Shown here piece by piece: positions 8,328-12,711 of a stretch of 38,511 nt of DNA (positions are counted from its first letter, which is position 1; every line of letters begins with the position of its first letter). The stretch is from assembly GCA_902788735.1 (NCBI GenBank), contig CADALJ010000005.1:1-38511 (forward strand). The letters are read 5' to 3'. Made by a program: the position numbers and the translations under genes. The stretch is from an uncultured Erysipelotrichaceae bacterium. Lineage in GTDB: Bacteria; Bacillota_I; Bacilli_A; RF39; UBA660. A model generated the notes under the pieces. That model worked only from the letters and a program-made list of their open reading frames with translations, had not been told where the DNA came from and made no database searches.

Positions 8328-8831
8328 ATGGAAAAATATAAAATAGCAGTAGAGAATTTAAGAAAGGCTAAAATAAGATATTATGAGATTGATAAAGGGT
8401 GTGAAATACCTGAAGTAGAGGCATATGCATTACTTATAAAAATAGGTGATGAATATAGAAATGTAGTTCGCCCTTTAGAAGAATGTAATGTCTATGATAG
8501 ATTACCATATAGTAATCGTACTCAAAATGGTGAAGATTTTGGTAGTAAGATAATTTTAGCAAGTGGAAAAGAAGAAGATGGTATTTGCTATATTATGGAG
8601 AAAAAACTTGGAGCTTTTGAAGGTAAAGATTATGTTACTGTAGACGAAATAGATGATGAAATTATTAATAATTTAGATGTTTTTTATTTTGATAGATGGG
8701 ATTTATGTTTTGATGGTGTAGTACCAATTAATAAGCGCTCTAAAGTAGTTAAAAAAGCTGATAAAGAACGTCGTAATAAATTTATTGAGTTTTTAAATTC
8801 TAAACAAAAACAAAAAAAATTCATAAAGTAG
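8328..8831 (+). CDS. Conserved-looking soluble protein of unknown function
   Basis: A 167-residue protein I do not recognise. It has no membrane segment or signal peptide, several aromatic-rich segments (VFYFDRWDLCF), an acidic middle (TVDEIDDEIINN) and a strongly basic C-terminal helix (KADKERRNK followed by a Lys/Gln-rich tail). It is third in the sufSU transcript with AGGAGAT before its ATG, so it may act with Fe-S assembly, but that rests on position only. It is not SufB, SufC or SufD. A hairpin terminator follows some 40 bases downstream. Confidence 0.55.
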   Translation: MEKYKIAVENLRKAKIRYYEIDKGCEIPEVEAYALLIKIGDEYRNVVRPLEECNVYDRLPYSNRTQNGEDFGSKIILASGKEEDGICYIMEKKLGAFEGKDYVTVDEIDDEIINNLDVFYFDRWDLCFDGVVPINKRSKVVKKADKERRNKFIEFLNSKQKQKKFIK

Positions 8832-8870
8832 TAAACTTGTTTTTTGAATAGTATATATGATTAGAAAAAT

Positions 8871-8900
8871 GAAAATTCGTTATAGGGTTTTCTTTTTTTT
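8871..8900 (+). terminator. Rho-independent terminator of the suf operon
   Basis: An 8-bp stem with two G-U pairs (8871-8878 with 8885-8892), six-base loop, then eight T. Confidence 0.75.
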
Positions 8901-8936
8901 ATGCGTTTTTCTTTATGAAAAATAAGAAATGGTAGT

Positions 8937-8965
8937 TTGCGTAAGTTTCTTTTATTTATTAATAT
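8937..8965 (+). promoter_or_regulatory. Weak candidate promoter for the SSB gene
   Basis: TTGCGT (8937-8942), 17-bp spacer, TAATAT (8960-8965). If used, its start point would fall at the beginning of the hairpin described next. Confidence 0.3.
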
Positions 8966-8983
8966 ACCTCTTCGAAAGGAGGT
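8966..8983 (+). promoter_or_regulatory. Hairpin that can mask the SSB ribosome binding site
   Basis: ACCTCTT (8966-8972) pairs with AGGAGGT (8977-8983) across a CGAA loop, one G-U pair. The 3' arm is the complete Shine-Dalgarno sequence, five bases before ATG 8989. Confidence 0.45.
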
Positions 8984-8988
8984 GATCT

Positions 8989-9324
8989 ATGCTTAATCAA
9001 ATTATTTTAGTTGGTAGGTTAACTAGAGATATTACTGTTAATAAAGCGGAGAATGGAGTTAAGGTTGCTACTATTCCTATTGCTGTTCCAAGAAGTTTTA
9101 AGAATGTAGAAGGCGTGTATGATACTGATTTTATTGATTGTGTTGCTTTTGATATTATTGCTGAAAATACAAGTGAATACTGTAGTAAAGGAGATATTGT
9201 AGGTATAAAGGGTAGAATTCAAACAAAAGTAATTGAATTAGAGGATGGAAAGAAAGAAAATAAATTAGAAATAATATGTGAGAAAATAACATTTTTATCT
9301 AGTAAACCTAAAGAAGAAGAGTAA
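8989..9324 (+). CDS. ssb: Single-stranded DNA-binding protein, short paralog
   Basis: OB-fold protein that coats single-stranded DNA. The 111-residue product opens with MLNQIILVGRLTRD, the canonical SSB start, and continues through IPIAVPRSF and DTDFIDCVAFDIIAENTSEYC, the expected strands, ending the OB fold near residue 100. The tail is very short and ends in EEE; the usual Gly/Gln-rich linker and the acidic DDDIPF-type tip are absent. That resembles competence-type SsbB or accessory paralogs rather than the essential SsbA, which normally sits between rpsF and rpsR. The ribosome site can be folded into a hairpin. Confidence 0.87.
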   Translation: MLNQIILVGRLTRDITVNKAENGVKVATIPIAVPRSFKNVEGVYDTDFIDCVAFDIIAENTSEYCSKGDIVGIKGRIQTKVIELEDGKKENKLEIICEKITFLSSKPKEEE

Positions 9325-9337
9325 TCTTCTTTTTTTT
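9311..9337 (+). terminator. Terminator with stop codon in the loop
   Basis: Stem AAGAAGA/TCTTCTT (9314-9320 with 9325-9331), extendable by three pairs, around a GTAA loop that contains the SSB stop codon. A 24-base identical copy lies at 11000-11023. Confidence 0.85.
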
Positions 9338-9364
9338 GACTAAATCTCTATTTTGTGGTATAAT
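9336..9364 (+). promoter_or_regulatory. Strong promoter of the repeat-protein operon
   Basis: TTGACT (9336-9341), 17-bp spacer, TATAAT (9359-9364), with TGG just before the -10. The -35 overlaps the end of the preceding U-tract. The start point near 9371 excludes the in-frame GTG at 9367 as initiator. Confidence 0.8.
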
Positions 9365-9387
9365 ATGTGCCCAATGAGGTGGATAGT

Positions 9388-10605
9388 GTGTTAAAAGAAT
9401 TATTTTTAAAATTTGGATATACAGAAGATGAATATGAAAGAATTAGAAATAGTTATTCAATAAAAAATTATCATGATGAAACTTTAGTTATAAAATTTAA
9501 TGAAATTACTAATTATTTAATTAGTGTTGGATATGATAAAAATGACATTATAAGAACTGGAAAAATATTACCTCAAATTTTTGGATTAAGTGTAAGTAAT
9601 ATTAGTAAAAAAATAGTTGATATGATGTCCTTAGGATATACAAGAGATGAAGTTGTTGAAATTTCTAAATCATTTCCTAAAATATTTAGTTATACAGCAG
9701 AAACTAATAAAAAACAAATTGATGTTATAGAATCATATAGTTATACTAAAAAACAAGCTTTAAAATTAATAAAAGCATCTCCTAGGATATTAGCTAATGC
9801 TGAAACTTATATCGAAGCTAAAATTAAAAATATTACTTCTTTAGGATTTAGTAGAGATGATGTTATAAAAATGAGTAAAGCTTATCCAATCTTATTTCGT
9901 TTGAGTTTTAAACATATAAAAAATTCATTTGAGGGTATTATGAAATTAGGATATTCATTCGAAGGTACTATAAAGATAGGAAGAGAATATCCACAAATAT
10001 TTGGTTTTAATGGTGACAAATTAAATGAAAAAATAAATGAACTTGTTGATTTAGGTTATACTCGTGAAGATGTATTAAGAATAACAAAATCTTCTCCATC
10101 TATTTTAGGTCTTAATATAGATAGTATAAAAACAAAGATAGAAGAAATAAGGTCAATTGGTTATTCACGAGAAGAAGTATTAGAAATTACTAGAGTATCA
10201 CCACCTATTTATACATATAGTACGACGAGTATGATGAAAAAAGTTCACGGTATAATTAATTTAGGTTATACACGAGAAGAAGTATTAGATATGACTATTA
10301 GTTTACCTTCTATTTATGGATTTAATATTGAAAATATTAAAGAAAAAGTAGAATTCTATGATTCTATAGGTATGCATGATCTTTTAGTAGTAAATACAAA
10401 AAATTTAATGCAAAGTGTTGCTCTTTCATACGCAAGATATAAGTTTTATTTATCTTTAGGTATTAATATTTCTATGGATAATTATGAAAAATTGTTTATA
10501 AGCAACAAAGTTTTTGAAAAATTATATGGAATAAAAAAAGAAGAATTATTAAATAGATATAGTTATGAAGAATATATAGAATCAAAAGAAAAGGTGAAAA
10601 AATAA
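9388..10605 (+). CDS. mTERF-like helical-repeat protein, putative nucleic-acid binder
   Basis: A 405-residue solenoid protein. Residues 48-327 (bases 9529-10368) are eight gap-free repeats of exactly 35 residues. Typical units start GYTREDVLRITKSSPSILGL; consensus G-(Y/F)-(S/T)-x-x-(D/E)-V at the start, Pro at position 15 in all eight, and (I/L)-K-x-K-(I/V) late. Position 12 is Lys or Arg in seven of eight, a possible phosphate-contact ladder, while positions 13-14 vary. The pattern resembles mTERF repeats of organelle transcription factors and, in length, TALE-like repeats; binding of DNA or RNA is inference. A degenerate repeat precedes and a helical tail follows. Start GTG 9388 follows GAGGTG by six bases and fits the promoter. 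It overlaps the next gene by one base. Confidence 0.75.
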   Translation: MLKELFLKFGYTEDEYERIRNSYSIKNYHDETLVIKFNEITNYLISVGYDKNDIIRTGKILPQIFGLSVSNISKKIVDMMSLGYTRDEVVEISKSFPKIFSYTAETNKKQIDVIESYSYTKKQALKLIKASPRILANAETYIEAKIKNITSLGFSRDDVIKMSKAYPILFRLSFKHIKNSFEGIMKLGYSFEGTIKIGREYPQIFGFNGDKLNEKINELVDLGYTREDVLRITKSSPSILGLNIDSIKTKIEEIRSIGYSREEVLEITRVSPPIYTYSTTSMMKKVHGIINLGYTREEVLDMTISLPSIYGFNIENIKEKVEFYDSIGMHDLLVVNTKNLMQSVALSYARYKFYLSLGINISMDNYEKLFISNKVFEKLYGIKKEELLNRYSYEEYIESKEKVKK

Positions 10606-11000
10606 TGGATGAATTATTTGATTTAGGATTAAGTGATGAAACGTTAAAAAATATGATTGAATTAAATCCATTAATAATGAAATTATCAAATGAAGAAGTA
10701 TTAGATAAAATTAATTTATTAAAAAGTATTAATTGTAGTAGTAATCAGATTAGTAATATTATTGGTAGTAATTCAATGCTTTTAACTAGAAGTAATACTG
10801 ATATCATTAAGTTAATTAATTATTTAAATGGATTAGGTTTTAGTTCATTAAATATATTATTTGATTCTAATCCATATATATTAAACTTAGATATATTTGA
10901 GGTTAATAATTATATTGAAGATAGAATAAGTAATGGTGAATTATTAGAAGATATTATTGATGATTTAGATAGTAATACTTATTTATTTAATGAAATTTAA
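10605..11000 (+). CDS. Short mTERF-like repeat protein, partner of the upstream gene
   Basis: A 131-residue protein with about three repeats of the same class: residues 8-42 fit the 35-residue unit with Pro at position 15 (GLSDETLKNMIELNPLIMKL), 43-77 is a second 35-residue unit with Ser in place of Pro, and a third, shifted unit starts at 78 (GFSSLNILFDSNPYI). Compared with the large partner it is acidic, ending in an Asp-rich helix, so it may be a partner or a decoy rather than a nucleic-acid binder; that is inference. ATG 10605 shares its A with the upstream TAA (TAATG), implying translational coupling. It might also be a C-terminal piece split off from a longer ancestor. Confidence 0.65.
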   Translation: MDELFDLGLSDETLKNMIELNPLIMKLSNEEVLDKINLLKSINCSSNQISNIIGSNSMLLTRSNTDIIKLINYLNGLGFSSLNILFDSNPYILNLDIFEVNNYIEDRISNGELLEDIIDDLDSNTYLFNEI

Positions 11001-11023
11001 AGAAGAGTAATCTTCTTTTTTTT
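10999..11023 (+). terminator. Terminator of the repeat-protein operon
   Basis: Stem AAGAAGA/TCTTCTT around a GTAA loop (11000-11006 with 11011-11017), then T-run. Bases 11000-11023 are identical to 9314-9337. Confidence 0.85.
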
Positions 11024-11025
11024 AT

Positions 11026-11053
11026 TTGTAATTTTATATTATTTTGGTATAAT
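11026..11053 (+). promoter_or_regulatory. Promoter for GNAT-pdp operon
   Basis: TTGTAA (11026-11031), 16-bp spacer, TATAAT (11048-11053) with TGG just before it. Confidence 0.65.
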
Positions 11054-11074
11054 AAAAGAAAAGTAGGTGTTAAT

Positions 11075-11488
11075 ATGGAAATTAAAGTAAGAGAATATGA
11101 GAAAAAGGATTTTGATGGTGTTAATCTGATGCTTTATGAAGCATTTCGTAGATTAAAGAAGACTGATCTTTCTGAAAATCCTAATTTCCATGAGGTAGTG
11201 GCTGAATGTAATGGACGTGTTGTTGGTTATTTACTTCTTACAAAGGTATTAAATCCTATTAGAAATAGACATTATTACATAATAGATTATGTATGTGTAG
11301 TTAGAGATTTTAGGGGTTATGGTGTTGGTGAAAAAATGATGGAATATGCTGAAGAATATGCTAGACACTGTGGTGGAATGTATTTACAGCTTACTTGTAG
11401 ATGGACTAGAATTGAAGCTCATAAATTATATGAAAAATGTGGCTTTGTTAAGAGAGAGTCTGATATATTTAGGAAGGAACTTATATGA
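11075..11488 (+). CDS. GNAT family N-acetyltransferase
   Basis: Acetyl-CoA-dependent acyltransferase of unknown substrate. The 137-residue product shows the GNAT order: N-terminal VREYEKKDFDGV, strand GRVVGYLLLTKV, central strand YYIIDYVCVVRDFRG, the acetyl-CoA pyrophosphate loop R-D-F-R-G-Y-G-V-G (about residues 86-94), and the C-terminal EAHKLYEKCGF motif seen in small-molecule and protein acetyltransferases. Complete and of normal length. Its TGA overlaps the ATG of the nucleoside phosphorylase gene by four bases (ATGA), so both are translated together. The pairing does not define the substrate. Confidence 0.88.
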   Translation: MEIKVREYEKKDFDGVNLMLYEAFRRLKKTDLSENPNFHEVVAECNGRVVGYLLLTKVLNPIRNRHYYIIDYVCVVRDFRGYGVGEKMMEYAEEYARHCGGMYLQLTCRWTRIEAHKLYEKCGFVKRESDIFRKELI

Positions 11489-12711
11489 TACTAGATATAA
11501 TTGATAAAAAAAGGGTTGGCAAAGAATTAAGTTATAAGGAATTAGATTACTTATTTAATGGTTATTTAAATGGGGATGTTTGTGATTATCAAATGTCTAG
11601 TTTTTTGATGGCTGTTTGTATTAATGGAATGACTGATGAAGAAGTGTTTGCTTTAACTAAGATATTTATTGATAGTGGTGATTCATTAGATTTTTCTAGT
11701 ATTCCTGGAATAAAAGTTGATAAACATTCTACTGGTGGAATAGGTGATAAAACTACTTTTGTAGTGGCACCCATCGTAGCTAGTTTAGGTATACCAGTTA
11801 TTAAGATGAGTGGTAGAGGGCTTGGTTATACAGGTGGTACTATTGATAAATTAGAAAGTATTAAGGGATATAAAGTTGATCTTTCTGAAAAAGAAATAAT
11901 GAAACAAGTTAAAGATATTAATTTTGTATTAACAGGACAGTCTCATGATTTAGTACCTATGGATAAAGTTATCTATGCTTTAAGAGATGTAACAGCTACT
12001 GTTAAATCTATTCCGTTAATTGCCTCTAGCATTATGAGTAAAAAAATAGCTAGTGGTGCTGATAAAATATTAATAGATATAAAAGTTGGTAATGGGGCAT
12101 TTTTAAGTAATAAAGAGGAAGCTAAAAAATTAGGTGATTTAATGGTTCGTATTGGTAATATATATGGACGTGAAGTTAGATATGTTATTAGTGATATGAA
12201 CACTCCATTAGGTTATTCTGTTGGTAATGGTTTAGAAGTAATAGAAGCATTAGATGTATTAAAAGGAAAAGAAACTTCAAATAATTTTGTTAATTTGTGT
12301 ATAGATTTATCTAGTGAAATGGTAAGTATGGGTCTTAATATTTCAAAAGACGAGGCTAGAAAGTTAGTTGTTAAAAGTATTGAAGATAAAACTGCATATA
12401 ATAAATTTTTAGAGTTAGTTAGTTATCAAGGTGGAGATATTAATAATATAAGTATTAGTAATAAGAAATGTATTATTAAATCTAATAAAAATGGAGAAAT
12501 TACTAAAATTAATGCTTTAGAAATTGGTAAATTAGCTTTGGAATTAGGTGCTGGTAAGAAAAATATAAAGGACAAAATAGATTATGGTGTAGGAGTAAGG
12601 CTTAATAAGTTAATTGGTGAAAAAGTTAAAAAAGGTGACACTTTAGCTACTCTTTACGTAAATAATAAAGTTCCTAATATAGATATAGATAAGATTTTTA
12701 CTATTTGTTAA
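11485..12711 (+). CDS. pdp: Pyrimidine-nucleoside / thymidine phosphorylase
   Basis: Cleaves pyrimidine (deoxy)nucleosides with phosphate to free base and (deoxy)ribose-1-phosphate for salvage. The 408-residue product follows the family throughout: phosphate-binding KVDKHSTGGIGDKTT, the signature SGRGLGYTGGTIDKLES, YALRDVTATV, IPLIASSIMSKKIASGA and VGNGAFL. Length is a little below Bacillus Pdp (about 434) with a shorter C-terminal domain. One oddity: the His of the usual GLGHTGGT, implicated in catalysis in thymidine phosphorylases, is Tyr here. It is translationally coupled to the GNAT gene. No clear terminator follows; the next promoter begins within 10 bases of the stop. Confidence 0.9.
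   Translation: MILDIIDKKRVGKELSYKELDYLFNGYLNGDVCDYQMSSFLMAVCINGMTDEEVFALTKIFIDSGDSLDFSSIPGIKVDKHSTGGIGDKTTFVVAPIVASLGIPVIKMSGRGLGYTGGTIDKLESIKGYKVDLSEKEIMKQVKDINFVLTGQSHDLVPMDKVIYALRDVTATVKSIPLIASSIMSKKIASGADKILIDIKVGNGAFLSNKEEAKKLGDLMVRIGNIYGREVRYVISDMNTPLGYSVGNGLEVIEALDVLKGKETSNNFVNLCIDLSSEMVSMGLNISKDEARKLVVKSIEDKTAYNKFLELVSYQGGDINNISISNKKCIIKSNKNGEITKINALEIGKLALELGAGKKNIKDKIDYGVGVRLNKLIGEKVKKGDTLATLYVNNKVPNIDIDKIFTIC

Follow-up and report, generated by a model that had tools for sequence, protein, structure and literature searches.

A bacterial operon encoding an mTERF-family tandem-repeat protein and a small acidic mTERF-like partner

Results

The window, which is the whole stretch of 38,511 nucleotides that was analyzed, contains an operon of two overlapping genes, and this pair is a real and well-defined feature. 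The large open reading frame extends from a GTG at 9388 to a stop ending at 10605 and encodes 405 amino acids; an alternative in-frame GTG at 9367 sits 5' of the best ribosome-binding site (GAGGTGG, 9376-9382). The small open reading frame (10605-11000, 131 amino acids) overlaps the stop of the large one by a single base (TAATG). The features of the locus are as follows.

9314-9337, no strand: left-hand member of a 24-bp direct repeat found on both sides of the inserted pair, AAGAAGAGTAATCTTCTTTTTTTT, terminator-like
9359-9364, + strand: TATAAT, probable -10 box for the two genes, as read from the sequence
9388-10605, + strand: large mTERF-repeat protein, 405 aa, pI 9.0 (PF02536 1.8e-41, pLDDT 92.3, MTERF1 Z 20)
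9388-9528, + strand: helical N-terminal part of the large protein, residues 1-47, preceding the array (repeat register and predicted model)
9529-10368, + strand: eight gap-free 35-residue repeats, residues 48-327, with Pro15 in each (repeat analysis)
10369-10602, + strand: C-terminal segment of the large protein, residues 328-405, with the LMQSVxLSYARYxF motif common to family-wide relatives
10605-11000, + strand: small acidic mTERF-like protein, 131 aa, pI 4.1 (PF02536 3.3e-10, pLDDT 90.6, MTERF3 Z 15.9, rmsd 2.1)
11000-11023, no strand: right-hand member of the direct repeat (24 bp), matching 9314-9337

The repeats of the large protein begin at residues 48, 83, 118, 153, 188, 223, 258, and 293. 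An initial sequence-only reading had described them as eight exact, gap-free units with Pro at position 15 throughout, a basic residue at position 12 in seven of the eight, and variable residues at positions 13 and 14. The register was confirmed by a self-similarity signal (11.9 at lag 35 and 15.0 at lag 70) far beyond the best of 500 shuffles (-6.9), and a listing of the residues bears out the remainder, with K, K, K, K, R, K, R, and I at position 12 and IL, SF, AS, AY, EY, SS, VS, and SL at positions 13/14. Mutually, the repeats are only 30% alike. The classical mTERF motif places hydrophobic residues at +3, +10, and +17 from a Pro (quoted in PMC11417379), and this spacing is present in the large protein: Pro in 8/8 repeats, hydrophobic residues at +3 in 8/8 (FFLFFLYY), at +10 in 7/8 (INIILIMI), and at +17 in 8/8 (MIIILIIY).

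Both proteins exceed the curated cut-off of the Pfam mTERF family (PF02536, 23.1 bits), the large one with 142.5 bits and the small one with 39.8 bits. The AF2 models are confident, and the predicted large model consists of three-helix repeats stacked as the mTERF superhelix. It superimposes on human MTERF1-DNA structures with a Z of 20.0 over 307 residues (rmsd 5.8), on MTERF3 with a Z of 17.1 over 250 residues and the lowest rmsd (3.6), and on mitoribosomal MTERF4 with a Z of about 13; the best match of the small model is MTERF3. The mTERF affinity that had been proposed from the sequence thus withstood profile search and structure prediction, as Pfam, Foldseek, and VIA-align all point to MTERF1 and MTERF3. 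A single-sequence search scores the designed 35-residue toroid dTor_6x35L and MTERF1 about equally, which means that homology is overstated by raw E-values of PDB sequence matches; the homology claim is carried by profile, motif, and fold. On these grounds, the large protein is assigned to the mTERF family, from which nucleic-acid binding may be expected. Matches to UBA, RuvA_C, and StbA_2 covered short bits of one repeat helix pair or fell far under the family cut-off and were judged spurious.

A likeness to TALE repeats had also been put forward. Homology was rejected, since no TAL family appears among the Pfam matches up to an E-value of 10, and TALE chains superimpose poorly on the large model (rmsd 14-18 Å) with a Z of 8-10, which is far under the mTERF values and may reflect a common repeat arrangement. 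Neither is there a TALE-type adjacent hypervariable 12/13 pair: the relatives vary at positions 13, 14, 16, 19, and 20, and K12 is nearly constant. The comparison holds as an analogy, in that the relatives vary at few positions, and fails for both the superposition and the 12/13 pair. By predicted fold and profile, the window protein is an mTERF and not a TALE.

The small protein has a pI of 4.1 and a net charge of -15. Its lag-35 signal is barely over that of shuffled sequences (4.5 vs 4.2), and it is the Pfam match and the predicted mTERF fold that support the earlier statement that it carries the same repeat in acidic form. All small proteins examined are acidic (pI 4.1-5.3), and array-type large proteins are basic or weakly basic (pI 7.5-9.4). 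The small gene is absent beside some large genes (L085, L086, L087, L091, and L092) and solitary in other loci (L100/L126 and L130), and is therefore a frequent but non-obligatory partner. The coupling is conserved across the genus at the locus between cvpA and rnhC and does not extend to every locus; the small protein, consistently acidic and of mTERF fold, may be the inhibitor or partner that was initially suggested.

Most genomes of the genus carry a large-small pair between divergent cvpA and rnhC, neighbors whose identities we presume from their sequences. The genome of the window also has this pair (contig C35, L002), and the window pair is its second; in G016 (94% complete, L119), cvpA adjoins rnhC and the pair is missing. 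A second pair turned up in just one further genome of the genus (G032), in which the small gene precedes the large one. A tree of the C-terminal 150 residues places the window protein among the proteins scattered across the family, opposite the cvpA-rnhC proteins at a 100/99 split. The large proteins of the cvpA-rnhC locus are near neutral and have acidic residues at several Pro-flanking positions, so that this pair may serve a different purpose. Large and small distances are correlated within this set, with a partial r of 0.61 after allowing for RnhC and CvpA, calculated over pairs that are not independent. The short divergent promoter region between cvpA and the large gene (L023-L044, e.g. 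L023:4722-4793) is strongly conserved, CATTATAAACTATTT...TATGCTATAAT, and includes two -10 boxes about 28 bp apart with no clear -35; it is a possible autoregulatory site. A conserved operator was considered here and dropped, as the conservation is dominated by the two divergent -10 boxes.

The window pair itself is located between ssb and a GNAT gene. In G017, the iscU-like, u8328, ssb, gnat, and deoA-like genes follow one another in unbroken order without the pair, and window positions 8812-9362 and 11008-11993 align to adjoining DNA. Since these flanks are adjacent in G017, the pair was inserted separately into the ssb-gnat junction of the window, unless G017 lost it. This junction (window 9340-11075) is a variable insertion site elsewhere as well, being empty in L143 and L149 and occupied by a 159-aa ORF in L144 and a 253-aa ORF in L152.

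With regard to distribution, the PF02536 model yielded zero matches in 14 control genomes, and in class-wide (395 genomes) and phylum-wide (392 genomes) samples its matches came only from the family of the window; a single genome of another family had a sub-threshold match of 19.5 bits. Within the family, 25 of 386 genomes encode mTERF proteins and come from 22 of 150 genera, and 31 of the 39 genomes of the window's genus match the large protein. Contigs matched by a search profile built from the small-protein alignment are gut and rumen Bacilli MAGs. A phage or plasmid origin was set aside, as phages, plasmids, and viral contigs gave no match, as was membership in a defense system, as neither protein matches PADLOC. 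Eukaryotic contamination was dismissed in view of the bacterial flanks (NifU-like, SSB, GNAT, and deoA-like) and of relatives in syntenic bacterial loci.

Several further mTERF-like loci were observed. L109:4755-6860(-) and L110:3842-6963(+) each encode a short acidic mTERF-like protein of another type (147-151 aa; PF02536 1.7e-11 and 2.6e-7) directly 5' of a 551- or 884-aa protein; these two proteins are 31% identical to each other and have a common N-terminal HNH-like domain (HNH_4 8e-4, below the cut-off). The L110 copy adjoins AbiEi/AbiEii genes, and the arrangement is possibly an mTERF-HNH nuclease module. A third short mTERF-like protein (L111:3174-5311(-), 137 aa) is followed by a 568-aa protein with no Pfam match and no similarity to the HNH-like protein of L109/L110. 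In L112:5567-9132 (G326:C35), three large mTERF-repeat genes in a row (267, 405, and 372 aa) precede a small acidic gene (135 aa). Proteins of about 100 aa with weak matches to the small-protein profile (4e-9 and 4e-10) are encoded at L135:1435-1737(-) and L136:1441-1740(-), near an apparent methyltransferase gene and a likely rpoB gene.

Nearly identical repeats are found in the family members L088, L089, L092, L093, L094, L096, and L114. With the final repeat of every array omitted, mismatches cluster at positions 13, 14, 16, 19, and 20 (0.56-0.63 vs a mean of 0.19 over all positions), and these five hold 47% of all mismatches. A permutation count of these mismatches is no independent test, as the positions were first noticed in the same data. 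In a leave-one-array-out analysis, which excluded L114 (from the genome that also carries L093), every round picked these same five positions, and in each round they were the more variable ones in the left-out array. At the codon level, pN/pS came to 1.01 at the five positions and 0.15 elsewhere, pS itself being similar (0.39 and 0.35); the repeat pairs were pooled and are not independent, and relaxed and diversifying selection cannot be told apart by a ratio near 1 alone. Functional diversification is favored because nearly all other positions are conserved and many residue combinations occur. Near-identical arrays (L089, L090, L093, L096, and L114) often reach contig ends, and repeat numbers in draft genomes are therefore probably underestimated.

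Human MTERF1 reads bases directly with R162, R202, R251, R350, and R387, and its conserved prolines line the major groove (PMC4705650). Counted in sequence alignments, R162 falls at repeat position 13, R202 and R350 at position 16, and R251 at position 24. This register (chain position + 53 = residue number) was checked against the Arg at 162 (wild type), 202, 251, 350, and 387, as well as against the residues mutated in 3mvb (162, 243, and 288). Thus, three of the four in-repeat reading arginines lie on two of the five variable positions, and position 24 is mildly variable (0.22). A nearly constant repeat in which the residues expected to touch DNA vary suggests that these relatives are natural modular DNA readers.

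Discussion

Proteins of the mTERF family are known mainly from organelles, and bacterial reports have appeared only since 2024. The best explanation of the window pair, to which we give a probability of roughly 0.6, is a pTERF-like DNA-reading superhelix that acts on transcription and is modulated by a small acidic partner of the mTERF fold. The large protein would wind along the major groove of duplex DNA and read its sequence through the side chains that neighbor the Pro in each repeat (13, 14, 16, 19, and 20). On its site, the large protein would most likely act as a transcription regulator or road-block. The co-translated small protein may modulate this activity, either as a competitor for the basic groove or by binding to an end of the superhelix. 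In favor of this explanation are the PF02536 match, the fold match to MTERF1-DNA and MTERF3, and the mTERF motif spacing; the placement of MTERF1 base-reading residues at positions 13, 16, 24, and 16, and the nanomolar affinity of pTERF1 and pTERF2 for specific DNA; the variation of the five Pro-flanking positions in relatives; and the basic charge of window-type large proteins beside acidic small ones. A DNA rather than an RNA ligand, the effect on transcription, and the role of the small protein are inferred. Against this count the 30% mutual likeness of the window repeats, the near-identical logic being seen in relatives; the near-neutral cvpA-rnhC paralogues, with acidic residues at several variable positions; the RNA- and ribosome-directed action of MTERF3 and MTERF4; and the inconstant presence of the small gene. 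Only tentatively would we propose a modular DNA-recognition system on an mTERF scaffold, in which five Pro-flanking positions under diversifying selection in near-identical 35-residue repeats encode the target and the acidic mTERF-fold mini-protein of the same operon is a dedicated antagonist or end-cap.

Other explanations were weighed against the same evidence. A protein that, like MTERF3 or MTERF4, binds rRNA or recruits a modification enzyme and does not read DNA would fit the MTERF3 matches, which have the lowest rmsd for both proteins, the mitoribosomal MTERF4 matches, and the near-neutral cvpA-rnhC paralogues. However, a fixed rRNA target would not predict hypervariable base-reading positions, scattered presence and an insertion history are unlike a housekeeping ribosome factor, and the published pTERFs bind DNA (PMC11417379); we therefore consider this unlikely. 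About equally improbable is a regulator/anti-regulator or addiction-like module, a selfish or stress-response cassette in which the acidic small protein, as a DNA mimic, is a dedicated antagonist. The overlapping genes, the opposite charge in every pair checked, the 24-bp repeats on either side of an insertion at a variable junction, and the correlated large and small distances all speak for such a module, but unpaired large and small genes occur, gene order varies, no toxin domain or match in phages, plasmids, or PADLOC was found, and the genus stably retains the cvpA-rnhC pair.

Helical repeats are common scaffolds, and the sequence match to designed 35-residue toroids would allow for a protein-binding solenoid without nucleic-acid function, in which case the mTERF match would stem from a generic helical repeat of 35 residues. 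Given the specific mTERF match by profile and fold, the Pro-centered motif, the basic charge, and the overlap of variable positions with MTERF1 base-reading residues, this is very improbable. For the DNA-reading superhelix, if the Pro-flanking positions do set specificity, the natural near-identical arrays would provide a data set for learning an mTERF-DNA recognition code, and a compact programmable DNA binder could be built. For binders of this type, the acidic partner might serve as a natural regulator.

Among known systems, MTERF1 resembles the window protein in fold, in the mTERF motif, and in Pro residues lining the groove, and its base-reading arginines coincide with variable positions 13 and 16 of the bacterial repeats. 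In contrast, the window protein is bacterial, has exact 35-residue gap-free repeats, is 18% identical, lacks Arg at position 13, and has an acidic operon partner. MTERF3 and MTERF4 share the fold, MTERF3 being the best match of the small protein, but both are eukaryotic, act in organelles, and work on RNA or the ribosome, whereas the window pair is bacterial and shows no sign of ribosome or NSUN4-like partners. TALE, BurrH, and other TALE-like proteins also have helical repeats of 33-35 residues, and the relatives of the window protein likewise have near-identical units varying at few positions; the difference lies in five variable positions around the Pro rather than a two-residue RVD loop.

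The closest comparison is with pTERF1 and pTERF2, bacterial mTERF-like tandem-repeat proteins that bind DNA sequence-specifically with nanomolar affinity and different motifs (PMC11417379). Proteins of this kind come mostly from Bacillota gut MAGs, have 3-11 three-helix mTERF-like repeats with annotated mTERF motifs, and may be reprogrammable, as their authors suggest (PMC11417379, Hu et al. 2024). The window protein is likewise bacterial by its flanks, with eight tandem mTERF-like units, and, judging from the published description of pTERFs, is very probably of this kind. Hence the initial suggestion of an undescribed system is not supported, as prokaryotic mTERF-like proteins with specific DNA binding appeared in print in 2024 (PMC11417379). 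The window protein differs in having the Pro/hydrophobic features of the mTERF motif that pTERF1 is described as lacking (PMC11417379), and the main text of that paper makes no mention of an operon or acidic partner for pTERF. What is new here is the arrangement of a basic and an acidic protein in one operon, the history of the locus, and a diversification focused on particular sites, which links the bacterial repeat to DNA reading of the MTERF1 type.
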